This document shows, one piece after another, positions 38,098 to 41,976 of a stretch of 41,978 nt of DNA. Where the stretch lies: the NCBI GenBank assembly GCA_023133655.1, contig JAGLWB010000283.1, positions 1-41,978 of the forward strand, in the 5' to 3' direction. A program made the position numbers and the translations under genes. How positions within the stretch are numbered: the stretch's first letter is position 1; the number at the start of each line of letters is the position of its first letter. Origin of the DNA: Bacteroidales bacterium. Lineage in GTDB: Bacteria > Bacteroidota > Bacteroidia > Bacteroidales > JAGONC01. Under the pieces are notes generated by a model. The model was not told where the DNA came from and made no database searches. It saw only the letters and a list, made by a program, of their open reading frames with translations.

Positions 38098-38116
38098 CTA
38101 GTCATGGGCTAGTCAT
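38095..38116. repeat. Tandem 11-bp duplication across a stop codon
   Basis: GGGCTAGTCAT occurs twice in a row (38095-38105, 38106-38116). The second copy contains the stop codon and the final two Asp codons of the tricorn-like gene. Confidence 0.85.
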
Positions 38117-41100
38117 CTACCGGAAACGGTTCATGCTTTGGCCAGGGCCTCGGCTCTTCTTTTATTTTTTTGAGCAGAACTTCAACAGCTTTCATGAGTT
38201 GGGCGTCATAACCTTCTGCAACTTCTTTAGGTTTAAGCTCCACAATGATATCAGGAGTAATACCTTCGTTCTCCACGATCCATTTTCCTTCTGGCGAATA
38301 TATTCGATAGTCGGGCGCTGTGAGTCCACCACCGTCAATCATCGGGATGAACATAGAAACACCAACCAATCCTCCCCATGTGCGGGTGCCAATTACGGGG
38401 CCCATATTAAACTGCTGAAACTCTTGTGGAAGTTCGTCTCCTCCCGAGCCTGCCTGCCTGTTGGTAATGCAAGCCATATGAGCGTTAATGCCGTATGCCG
38501 GGCTTGTTTGGTCGTGCGAATATCTTCTGGTCCAATAGGAGTGAGGCTTTTTTAGCAGACGGCTGAAGAAAATATCAGGATCAAGGCCTCCTCCATTGAA
38601 ACGGCCGTCAATGATAAGTCCTTTTTTTCGTGCCTGAGAATAGAAATATTTTGGGAACTCAGTGGCTGAACCAAGATAAGTATCCGGGAAATGCATGTAT
38701 CCGATCTTGCCTCCGGATTCCCTGTCAACTATTAGCCTGTTACTTTCTACCCAGTCCTGGTAAACCAAAATCATTTCATTTGATATTGGTTTGATCGTAT
38801 ATTCTTTTGCGCCTTCAAAGGTAGGGTTTTCATTTACCGTTATCGTAACAACCTGACCGGAAAGATTCTGAAAGTAACTGTATATGTTTTTGTTAGCATT
38901 GATTACTTCTTCATTTACTTTAAGTATATAATCTCCTTCCTTAACATCAATACCGGGTTTATTCAAAGGTGGATAAATTCCCCTTGACCAATCTTCAACA
39001 CGTAATATCTTTTTAAATTGGTACAAGTTATTTTCCTCATCAATCATATATTCAGCGCCTAACAAACCTGTATTAATGCGATCAGCTTTTCGTTTACGAT
39101 CACCACCATAGACATATGTGTGTGATGTACTTAATTCTCCAATTAATTCACCGATGATGAACTGTACATCCTGGCGGCATGAGGCATAATCCATTAGCTT
39201 TCCGTATTTAATCTTCATATCATCCCAATCCAGGCCATGCATATCAGGTTCATAATAATAATCACGCTCCATTCGCCATGCTTCATTAAATATCTGTTTC
39301 CATTCAGCAAGAGGGTCCATCCACATCTTCATGTTAGAGAGATCGAGGTCTTCTCCTTTAGAATCTGTAGCAGAAGCGTCAATAATGCCAATATTCTCAC
39401 CTTTTTTATATACGATCTTATTGCCCCCGGATGATAGCTTATAGCTATTCACGCCAGCAATAACCTTTTGCTCTTTTCTGTCATCAAAGGAGAACCTGTA
39501 GAGATCCATAGTATTTACTGCCCTGAATTCAAAGCGGTTGAAGTCGCCCTCATCTTTATTAAGGTAAAAAACACCATTATCATTAGCGGCCAGGTATCTG
39601 TAATTCCCTCTCTTCAGAGGTAATGCTTCAATACGGTTTTCCAAACCTTCAAAATCAATGACAACATCCTCACTCATCTCTACTGTTTCCTTCTCTTCTG
39701 TTTCTCCGGTTTTCACCTCATCACTTTCTGTCGGAAGCAATGGATTATCATCAGCCTGAAGTGTTAAACAATATATCCCTGAAGTTTTTTTATATACCAT
39801 TTCCCACTCAAAATCACAGAAAGTAGGACTGAAACGCCGGTTAGAAACAAAAAACAGGTGTTTTCCGTCTTTAGAGAAGGCCGGGTGAAAGTCGTTAAAT
39901 AGGGTACTTATACAATGAATATCCCTGGCATCACCCAGTTTATAGATATATATTTTATTCACCAGGTCTTGATCCATCTTTGAATAGGCGATATATCGAC
40001 TATCAGGCGACCATGCATAGTCAAATATAGGTTTCACATCAATTGAAACATCAATATTCTCATATAAAGCCTTATCAATAGTTGTTATTTTTTTAGTTTC
40101 AACATCCAGCGTGTACAGCGTAAGGTTTTGGTCGGTAAAAGCAATTTTTTTGCCATCGGGCGACCAGCGAAGTGAATGACGGTAGCCATCTTTGAAACCG
40201 GTAAGCTCAACTGCATCTTCCTTCCCCATTTGATCAATGATATAAATCTGATATTCACCACTTTTATCTGAAAGGTAGGCGATAAATTTGCCATCCGGTG
40301 ACCATGTTGCATCTTTTTCACGAGCCCCCGGTGTATTTGTCAGGTTTCGCGTGGTGCCTTCCTCTGCAGGAACAGTGAAAATCTCACCCCTGGCAACAAT
40401 AAGCGCTCTTTCCCCTTCGGGTGAACAATCGAATCCTTGTATGTAATCTGTGACTTCTCTTAAGTAAGGCCTGGTTTCAGGCATATCAGCCTTGATCTCA
40501 ACAGGTACTTTTTTTGGTTCACCTGTGTTGATGTTGAGAACCATTAATTTCCCTCCCAGCTCGTATACAATTTTATTTTGGCCAAAGGAGGGGCGCCGGA
40601 CATCATATTCAGTATGGTGTGTGAGTTGAACGATATCTCCTGTTCCGGGATCGACTGAGTAAATATTCAATACCCTGTCGCGGTCGGAACTAAAATAAAT
40701 TTTATCATCTATCCACATAGGGATACGATCGGTACCGGGAAAGTTGGTCAGGTTTGTCTCCTGGTCAGTTTCCAGGTCGTAAAGATATATCTCCTGTGCT
40801 TTGCCCCCTTTGTAGCGTTTCCAGGTGCGGTTTTCGCGCGACACTTTATTAAATGCTATTTTTTTTCCGTCCGGGGAGAAACTGCCTTGAGAAACTTCAT
40901 GAAGGATGATATCTTCCATCCCGCTTCCGTCAGGATTGATAAGATAAAGACGTGAATAGCGTGGGTATCCACTCCGTGATGACCTGAAAATTATTTTATT
41001 TTTTGTGGGATGCCATCCGACCACCTCGTCATATGACGGGTAAAAAGTCACCCTGGTTATTTCGCCTCCATACTTATTCATAACATACACGTCAGGGTTT

Positions 41101-41378
41101 CCGTCGTAATTTCCGGTGAAAGCTATCAAAGAGCCATCAGGGGAAAATTTGGGTAATACCTCCCCTCCATCGTTTACAGTAAGACGTGTTGCCACACCTC
41201 CCTCTTCAGCCACAGACCAGATATCTCCGCCATGGACGAAGACGATCTGTCCATCATGGATATCGGGAAAACGCATGATAGGCCCCTGGGCCTGAGCAGG
41301 GATCAGTGAACAGTATACTGTTATCAGTAAAATGATTGAAAGGAAGATTGTTTTTTGGAAGAGGTTTTTTGTTTTCAT
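38109..41378 (-). CDS. Secreted tricorn-like S41 protease
   Basis: Known: tricorn-type proteases cut peptides using a serine nucleophile, with beta-propellers gating access; bacterial relatives are exported. Seen: 1089 residues; signal peptide (hydrophobic FLSIILLITVYCSLIPAQAQ, cleavage near 31); TolB/PD40-like propeller repeats such as FSPDGSLIAFTGN, WSPDGKFIAYLSD and WSPDGKKIAFTD over about 35-560; a tricorn C1 helical segment (MERDYYYEPDMHGLDW); a PDZ domain (GDYILKVNEEVI); and the S41 core with GRFNGGGLDPD, nucleophile near S978 in AGSGGDELPQEF, TWGGLVG and ENEGITPDI. The gene's end lies in an 11-bp tandem duplication beside a REP-like hairpin. No sorting domain, so probably periplasmic. 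Confidence 0.95.
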   Translation of the reverse strand: MKTKNLFQKTIFLSIILLITVYCSLIPAQAQGPIMRFPDIHDGQIVFVHGGDIWSVAEEGGVATRLTVNDGGEVLPKFSPDGSLIAFTGNYDGNPDVYVMNKYGGEITRVTFYPSYDEVVGWHPTKNKIIFRSSRSGYPRYSRLYLINPDGSGMEDIILHEVSQGSFSPDGKKIAFNKVSRENRTWKRYKGGKAQEIYLYDLETDQETNLTNFPGTDRIPMWIDDKIYFSSDRDRVLNIYSVDPGTGDIVQLTHHTEYDVRRPSFGQNKIVYELGGKLMVLNINTGEPKKVPVEIKADMPETRPYLREVTDYIQGFDCSPEGERALIVARGEIFTVPAEEGTTRNLTNTPGAREKDATWSPDGKFIAYLSDKSGEYQIYIIDQMGKEDAVELTGFKDGYRHSLRWSPDGKKIAFTDQNLTLYTLDVETKKITTIDKALYENIDVSIDVKPIFDYAWSPDSRYIAYSKMDQDLVNKIYIYKLGDARDIHCISTLFNDFHPAFSKDGKHLFFVSNRRFSPTFCDFEWEMVYKKTSGIYCLTLQADDNPLLPTESDEVKTGETEEKETVEMSEDVVIDFEGLENRIEALPLKRGNYRYLAANDNGVFYLNKDEGDFNRFEFRAVNTMDLYRFSFDDRKEQKVIAGVNSYKLSSGGNKIVYKKGENIGIIDASATDSKGEDLDLSNMKMWMDPLAEWKQIFNEAWRMERDYYYEPDMHGLDWDDMKIKYGKLMDYASCRQDVQFIIGELIGELSTSHTYVYGGDRKRKADRINTGLLGAEYMIDEENNLYQFKKILRVEDWSRGIYPPLNKPGIDVKEGDYILKVNEEVINANKNIYSYFQNLSGQVVTITVNENPTFEGAKEYTIKPISNEMILVYQDWVESNRLIVDRESGGKIGYMHFPDTYLGSATEFPKYFYSQARKKGLIIDGRFNGGGLDPDIFFSRLLKKPHSYWTRRYSHDQTSPAYGINAHMACITNRQAGSGGDELPQEFQQFNMGPVIGTRTWGGLVGVSMFIPMIDGGGLTAPDYRIYSPEGKWIVENEGITPDIIVELKPKEVAEGYDAQLMKAVEVLLKKIKEEPRPWPKHEPFPVDD

Positions 41379-41471: not shown

Positions 41472-41508
41472 TTGCCACCAAGGCACTAAGACACCAAGGT
41501 TCACTAAG
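41472..41508. repeat. Octamer-type repeat flanking the GxxExxY gene, 3' side
   Basis: Starts with TTGCCACCAAGGCACTAAG and continues with further CACCAAGG/CACTAAG units at 8-10 bp spacing. It ends one base before the gene's stop codon (41510-41512). Confidence 0.88.
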
Positions 41509-41509
41509 T

Positions 41510-41905
41510 TTATAGTACAAATCTTCTTATTCCCAATTTTATTAAAGGAACATTAAAATTTATTAAATAACCTAATCGGTTATCAGTAAGTTTAAGGTGA
41601 CTTAAAATTTGTGCCTCCCAAACAGGATTGACATTTTCCAATGCTTTTAATTCGCAAATTACCTGATCATCTACCAGCACATCTAAACGCAACCCTTCAT
41701 CAAACTCAAGTCCATCATATACTATTGGTATATACAATTGTCTTTGGTAATTTAAGCCTCTTTTCTGAAGTTCATGGCAAAAGCACGTTTCATACACTTT
41801 CTCTAATAAGCCAGGTCCCAGATTTTTATGAACAGTGTATGCTGCATCAACTATTTTTTTACCAATTATTTCAAGTTCTTCCGGTATTGGATTAAATTCC
41901 TTCAT
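41510..41905 (-). CDS. GxxExxY protein (PDDEXK_3 nuclease-like)
   Basis: Seen: 131 residues; the namesake motif is GLLEKVY within HKNLGPGLLEKVYE (about 26-39), followed by a PD-(D/E)XK-type core: RLDVLVDDQVICELKALE, then QILSHLKLTDNRLGYLINF. Known: this family (PDDEXK_3) is scattered over many phyla, often in several copies per genome, with no established function; a nuclease fold is predicted. The gene stands alone and is bracketed by 19-bp direct repeats, 53 bp before its start and just after its stop. The bracket suggests mobility or exchange by recombination; that is inference. Confidence 0.9.
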   Translation of the reverse strand: MKEFNPIPEELEIIGKKIVDAAYTVHKNLGPGLLEKVYETCFCHELQKRGLNYQRQLYIPIVYDGLEFDEGLRLDVLVDDQVICELKALENVNPVWEAQILSHLKLTDNRLGYLINFNVPLIKLGIRRFVL

Positions 41906-41957
41906 ATGCTCATATTTACTCTATTTCAATTTTACTTATTAACAGATTTTTCTTTTC

Positions 41958-41976
41958 TTGCCACCAAGGCACTAAG
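41958..41976. repeat. 19-bp direct repeat flanking the GxxExxY gene, 5' side
   Basis: TTGCCACCAAGGCACTAAG, identical to 41472-41490 and in the same orientation. It continues to the window edge, so its full length is unknown. Confidence 0.92.

Follow-up and report, generated by a model that had tools for sequence, protein, structure and literature searches.

We found that the GxxExxY gene is probably the core of a single-gene mobile unit, in which a nuclease is combined with its cognate inverted arms and accompanied by gene-less derivatives resembling REPINs and MITEs. We place the probability of this reading at roughly 0.6. Arms of a shared design surround the gene in many genomes, their type follows the type of the nuclease, and the unit is present or absent at the same genomic site. 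Gene-less hairpins built of the same boxes depend on the gene, which is co-oriented with its neighbours and held under purifying selection. As proposed here, the unit would comprise about 0.45-0.6 kb, with the gene lying between two inverted arms of the box type proper to its nuclease clade.

The window, which is the entire 41,978-bp contig (C205), carries an exact 19-mer, TTGCCACCAAGGCACTAAG, at 41472-41490 and again at 41958-41976, one copy on each side of the GxxExxY gene (Table 1). The original prediction had described identical 19-bp repeats bracketing a 131-codon gene of nuclease fold, a unit of about 486 bp, and a 3' copy that ends one base from the stop codon and continues as octamers. 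All of this was borne out: the copies are exact, the pair is not expected by chance (0 in 100 dinucleotide shuffles, even allowing 3 mismatches), the start-to-start distance is 486, and the octamers belong to a four-box array. The boxes are spaced by 8, 8, and 10, forming a complete four-box arm whose architecture matches the arm consensus of the relatives. It was noted that the 15-mer core of the repeat has only these two copies in the whole 3.76 Mb assembly, and the GxxExxY gene is likewise single-copy in this genome.

Table 1. Positions of the GxxExxY gene and its flanking repeats in the window.
Feature	Position	Strand	Description
GxxExxY gene	41510..41905	-	131 codons; PD-(D/E)XK nuclease; TIGR04256 and PF13366 matches
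3' arm, downstream of the gene	41472..41508	-	Four boxes; sequence and pattern searches
Box 1 of the 3' arm	41476-41482	read on +	CACCAAG
Box 2 of the 3' arm	41484-41490	read on +	CACTAAG
Box 3 of the 3' arm	41492-41498	read on +	CACCAAG
Box 4 of the 3' arm	41502-41508	read on +	CACTAAG
Second copy, 5' side of the gene	41958..41976	-	Two boxes; oriented as the 3' arm
5' flank of the gene	41906..41957	-	Without recognisable inverted 5' arm

Read in gene orientation, each copy has 3'-arm polarity, which makes the pair direct (flank alignment scores of 21 direct and 11 inverted). The second copy stops 2 bases before the contig end and probably represents the tail of an adjacent gene-less hairpin cut off there. 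Complete hairpins lie beside the gene in L104 and L250. Since the relatives that look like the window copy (L104 and Gemmatirosa) have a full gene-less hairpin next to the gene, the direct repeat of the window is probably a by-product of adjacent hairpins. The window copy is best explained, at the confidence given for the reading as a whole, as a mobile unit of the CACnAAG type whose 5' side meets a further arm where the contig ends. A protease adjoins the unit (window 38109-41378), with relatives' loci in G001, G003, and G004 (L337-L339). Upstream of the orthologous protease in these three genomes a tRNA-like sequence was found, with no unit and no GxxExxY gene, in a comparison that the contig end leaves one-sided.

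The relatives whose flanks we assessed comprised 80 named ones and loci from same-order genomes. Similarity to the window protein was the basis on which most of the 105 loci were collected. Flanks of 200 nt were locally aligned and an inverted match of at least 16 was counted. Inverted arms were found at 76 of the 105 genes. Controls from the same loci reached this level at 1.1% of 530 random positions and at 1.6% of 505 other ORFs. Approximately 28% of the loci, the window's own included, have no detectable inverted pair at the threshold used. In an independent sample across the phylum, drawn by HMM and not by similarity to the window protein, inverted arms were present in 19 of 29 loci vs 0 of 51 control positions. 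A direct flank match was seen in 34/105 relatives, many of these arising from whole hairpins side by side. The expectation that the gene is always flanked by direct 19-bp copies was thus not upheld, the usual layout being inverted. The idea of a minimal mobile unit holds insofar as gene and repeats form a unit of about 0.45-0.6 kb in many genomes. Direct repeats were ruled out as its ends, since inverted arms dominate and the direct matches come mostly from adjoining hairpins.

The common layout has GCCACnAAGnCACnAAGn... upstream of the gene and the reverse complement downstream. Each arm repeats a 7-base box, C(A/G)CNNA(G/T), often in the form GCCACnAAGnCACnAAGnCACnAAGnnnCACnAAG, and the arm consensus reads G(C)CAC n AAR n CAC n AAR n CAC n AAR nnn CAC n AAR, where n is a free position. 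The same inverted-arm layout was encountered in plasmid-collection records from Bacteroides, Bernardetia, and Sphingomonas, the Sphingomonas unit sitting between fabD and fabG, and Gemmatirosa in these records has whole hairpins next to the gene; no matching phage record was found. Similar arms or flanking hairpins were seen in Gemmatimonadota, Alphaproteobacteria, and Chloroflexota. It was also noted that several non-orthologous family f1 units (L007, L009, L022, L025, and L032) have in common an upstream element resembling GGGTAACAnnnnnTTCCGGATTAA, for which a promoter or the outer end of the unit are suggested as alternatives.

The window protein matches TIGR04256 with 139.7 bits (cut-off 35; E 5e-41) and PF13366 (PDDEXK_3) with 133.7 bits (cut-off 22; E 5e-39). 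Its active-site residues are E35 within the GxxExxY motif, D75, E85-x-K87, and Q99, conserved among 122 relatives at 100% (E35 and D75), 99% (E85 and K87), and 98% (Q99). The AF2 model (pLDDT 93.6) has the order helix-helix-three strands-helix-strands, of PD-(D/E)XK type. The best matches to PDB structures, all weak, include lambda exonuclease, SSO0001 (Cas4), a splicing endonuclease, and HJC, and no solved homologue was found by sequence. With dN/dS of 0.02-0.23 in eight pairs and nearly invariant catalytic positions, the enzyme is evidently maintained by selection. The gene was present in 99 of 198 sampled Bacteroidota genomes.

We then examined the correspondence between arm type and protein clade. 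The box types differ by unit (CACnAAG, CACnAAA, CACnGAG, CACnGAT, and CGC variants), all fit C(A/G)CNNA(G/T), and several coexist in one genome (G016). Five arm labels placed on the tree of 122 proteins required 17 changes, compared to 63.5 when shuffled (0/200 shuffles as low), and 7 label changes were counted over the 101 typed rows. This tree draws on few columns, and linked DNA that is inherited jointly could by itself produce such clustering, so that more weight falls on contrasts within one site and within one genome, which alone go further. At the junction between the radA and FAD genes of Bacteroides, units switch between GAG and GAT arms from one sister species to the next on the flank tree (G471/G406, G486/G487, G410/G446, and G463/G432), and their proteins form separate GAG and GAT clades. 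This indicates that arms and protein changed together at that site. Similarly, a single genome (JAHJVF) possesses an AAA-armed unit with an AAA-clade protein as well as AAG-typed units with AAG-clade proteins.

Hairpins of approximately 95-130 bp, made of the same boxes and containing no gene, occur in G000 at L164, L166, and L169, and many were found in G001, G003, and G004. Facing motif pairs in G001 and G004 are mostly 58-59 or about 78 bp apart. Near typed units, all six gene-less hairpins carried the unit's own box type, a small number. Box arrays without hairpin geometry showed no excess near units over reversed sequence, and only paired arrays were counted for this reason. Across the 198 Bacteroidota genomes, at least 5 motif matches were reached by 38 of the 99 genomes with the gene and by 2 of the 99 without it (Fisher 2.7e-11), with a motif pattern that covered the AAG and GAG box types only. 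The reversed-pattern control reached this count in 2 genomes with the gene and in none without. The association persisted when stratified by family (CMH p 0.004; permutation p 0.009). The possibility that the repeats occur as often without the gene was therefore found to apply in part: inside gene-bearing genomes the gene-less hairpins do outnumber the gene, whereas across genomes they depend on it.

The two genomes without the gene that nonetheless have 5 or more boxes are G597 and G493. G597 is the main exception to the association: no GxxExxY gene was detected in it, yet its contig C70 has 27 motif matches, many of them arranged in near-regular tandem. Some gene-less hairpins are centred in a second inverted repeat, GAGTCCACTCCGAAAAG or GAGGCTGTGTCAAAAT (L164 and L169 in G000; L186-L188 and L193 in G003 and G004), and look as if one palindrome had entered the loop of another. 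A second dispersed repeat, the GC-rich palindrome CCCCTCCCCTGCTAGCAGGGGAGGGG at L007:241-322, has dozens of copies in G001, G003, and G004.

Orthologous empty sites, which the original prediction had called for, were identified at the radA-FAD junction, where B. finegoldii carries a 478-bp insert. They do not retain one copy of the repeat as had been supposed, and instead hold ordinary spacers: among 19 radA-FAD junctions from other Bacteroidales, 18 had spacers of 6-90 bp and one (G260) had a differently armed unit. In a sample of the genus Bacteroides, 16 of the 29 best loci at this junction had the unit, and the remaining readable ones were mostly without it. G413, G472, and G434 lack the unit and have in common an unrelated spacer of 66-80 bp. 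On the flank tree, the unit-less G413 is sister to B. finegoldii and the unit-less G434 is sister to G401/G449. Between the filled G401 and the empty G434, the last 375 bp of radA are 100% identical; the FAD gene diverges by 4-9% over its first 225 bp, and the sequence is near-identical again further out. This one-sided divergent stretch suggests that the change between filled and empty states came with a short recombination tract.

Loss of the unit is also common. An apparent arm remnant was found at the radA-FAD junction of G437, and a different unit is degraded in G001, intact in G002 and G004, and missing in G003. Given the degraded copy of G001 and the intact copy of G002, the G003 junction reads as a deletion and was ruled out as a pristine empty site for the G004 unit. 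Units are often vertically inherited (in Bacteroides and in G001, G002, and G004) and decay in place, which suggests that mobility may be slow. No target-site duplication could be demonstrated, the radA-FAD spacers being too divergent and the G003 junction resembling a deletion scar.

Among 71 cases with co-directional neighbours, the gene shares their direction in 62 (62:9; p 7e-11 against 1:1), and ordinary small genes in the same loci are also biased toward their neighbours' direction (93:26). Co-orientation of an inserted unit would be unexpected unless its entry or its tolerance depended on transcription. A further set of loci was observed around four-helix-bundle genes (TIGR02436), which have 13 matches in G000. 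In 30 of 45 loci (G000 contigs C242, C137, C154, C114, and others; L114-L162) these genes lie between inverted arrays of other short tandem words, including GTTTCAG, GTTGCAG, AGTAGCC, and TAATGCGA, and they have no orientation bias (18:13). Relatives of these genes are encoded in 23S intervening sequences (IVSs) (PMC4990558), and the loci may represent a parallel class with a link to the 23S IVS ORF.

We considered whether the GxxExxY gene is passive and vertically inherited, with an operator- or terminator-type hairpin through which the nuclease or the host regulates or insulates it in operons, and with presence and absence resulting from loss and ordinary homologous recombination. The strong purifying selection, the vertical copies with their decaying remnants, the co-orientation with neighbours, and the one-sided tract in G401/G434, such as ordinary recombination would leave, all agree with this account. 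However, it leaves unexplained why dozens of hairpins have the same boxes at near-fixed spacing but no gene, why they depend on the gene, and why the unit type at one site has switched repeatedly, and we regard it as unlikely.

The gene occupies the loop of a long, imperfect hairpin and runs in the direction of the host operon, which would also suit an RNA-level element like the 23S rRNA intervening sequence: its arms would pair in the transcript, RNase III would excise the insert from the operon mRNA and so make insertions tolerable, and the gene would be cargo. The four-helix-bundle genes, kin of the 23S IVS ORFs and also placed between inverted arrays, lend this some support. Against it, the variable box positions of the two arms showed no complementarity beyond chance (0.327 vs 0.307 shuffled; p 0.25), which rules out a base-paired stem as the conserved feature at those positions and indicates that conservation lies in the boxes, much as in iterons recognised by a protein, rather than in a perfect stem. 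A scan of 18 loci with Rfam gave no family at the units and no rRNA match (one tRNA lies elsewhere in L158), the units lie between protein genes and not in an rRNA helix, and the arms track the nuclease clade. We consider an RNA-level element to be quite improbable. Very little credence is left for boxes that are a pre-existing host repeat family into or beside which GxxExxY genes merely insert. The surplus of gene-less hairpins over genes and the nesting of two G000 hairpins in other inverted repeats favour such an arrangement, yet arm type follows protein clade and not genome or site, and genomes that lack the gene have almost none of the boxes.

We infer that, in the single-gene mobile unit, it is the nuclease that moves the unit. 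It would recognise the boxes as an iteron-like array and cut at or near them, which may allow gene-bearing units, and gene-less hairpins in trans, to enter intergenic spacers. Recombination would then copy units into allelic sites or replace those sites in a homing-like manner, with the gene-less hairpins as REPIN/MITE-like passengers. A homing-like nuclease acting on its own repeats, as originally proposed, fits the data, and strict homing may be involved.

The closest parallel is the REPIN-RAYT system (REPtron), in which one endonuclease-type gene likewise lies between inverted repeats of a type specific to it, and many gene-less hairpin-forming doublets at near-fixed spacing are tied to the resident gene. 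A further similarity is a gene that is often single-copy and vertically inherited at the species level (PMC3116915, PMC3733652). GxxExxY units differ in that one genome can contain several divergent copies and in that they form presence/absence alleles. The only gene of the unit is a PF13366 PD-(D/E)XK nuclease and not a Y1/HUH tyrosine transposase, and its arms are arrays of 7-base boxes (consensus GCCACnAAGn...) without the GTAG tag. As enzyme class and repeat tag differ, the unit appears to work like REPIN-RAYT without being a member. TIRtrons and MITEs are similar in their terminal inverted repeats and gene-less derivatives of approximately 60-130 bp, but the unit has no transposase, no target-site duplication was found, and it terminates in degenerate iteron-like arrays. 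Free-standing homing endonuclease genes resemble it as lone intergenic nuclease genes with patchy presence and same-site allelic replacement; unlike these, the GxxExxY unit has inverted arrays at its flanks, and such arrays are also scattered as gene-less copies. The 23S rRNA IVS with its S23/four-helix-bundle ORF also places a small ORF in a long hairpin loop (approximately 430-480 nt in total), while the GxxExxY unit lies outside rRNA, encodes a different protein, and conserves boxes instead of pairing.

Neither of the two open-access papers found to name GxxExxY was about repeats, and no description of the unit was found in the open-access literature searched, so that it is apparently an undescribed tiny mobile element. 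Tentatively, such units may represent a widespread element class in which a stand-alone PD-(D/E)XK nuclease, with no transposase or recombinase, mobilises itself and gene-less hairpins via clade-specific 7-base-box arrays. If true, this would give a very common family of orphan nucleases a function and a mode of spread, would account for both the patchy, multicopy occurrence of that family and the dispersed hairpins in these genomes, and would constitute a nuclease-driven counterpart of REPIN-RAYT. The matched nuclease and target pairs would offer a ready set for studying the co-evolution of nucleases and DNA arrays, and possibly a source of small sequence-specific nucleases.
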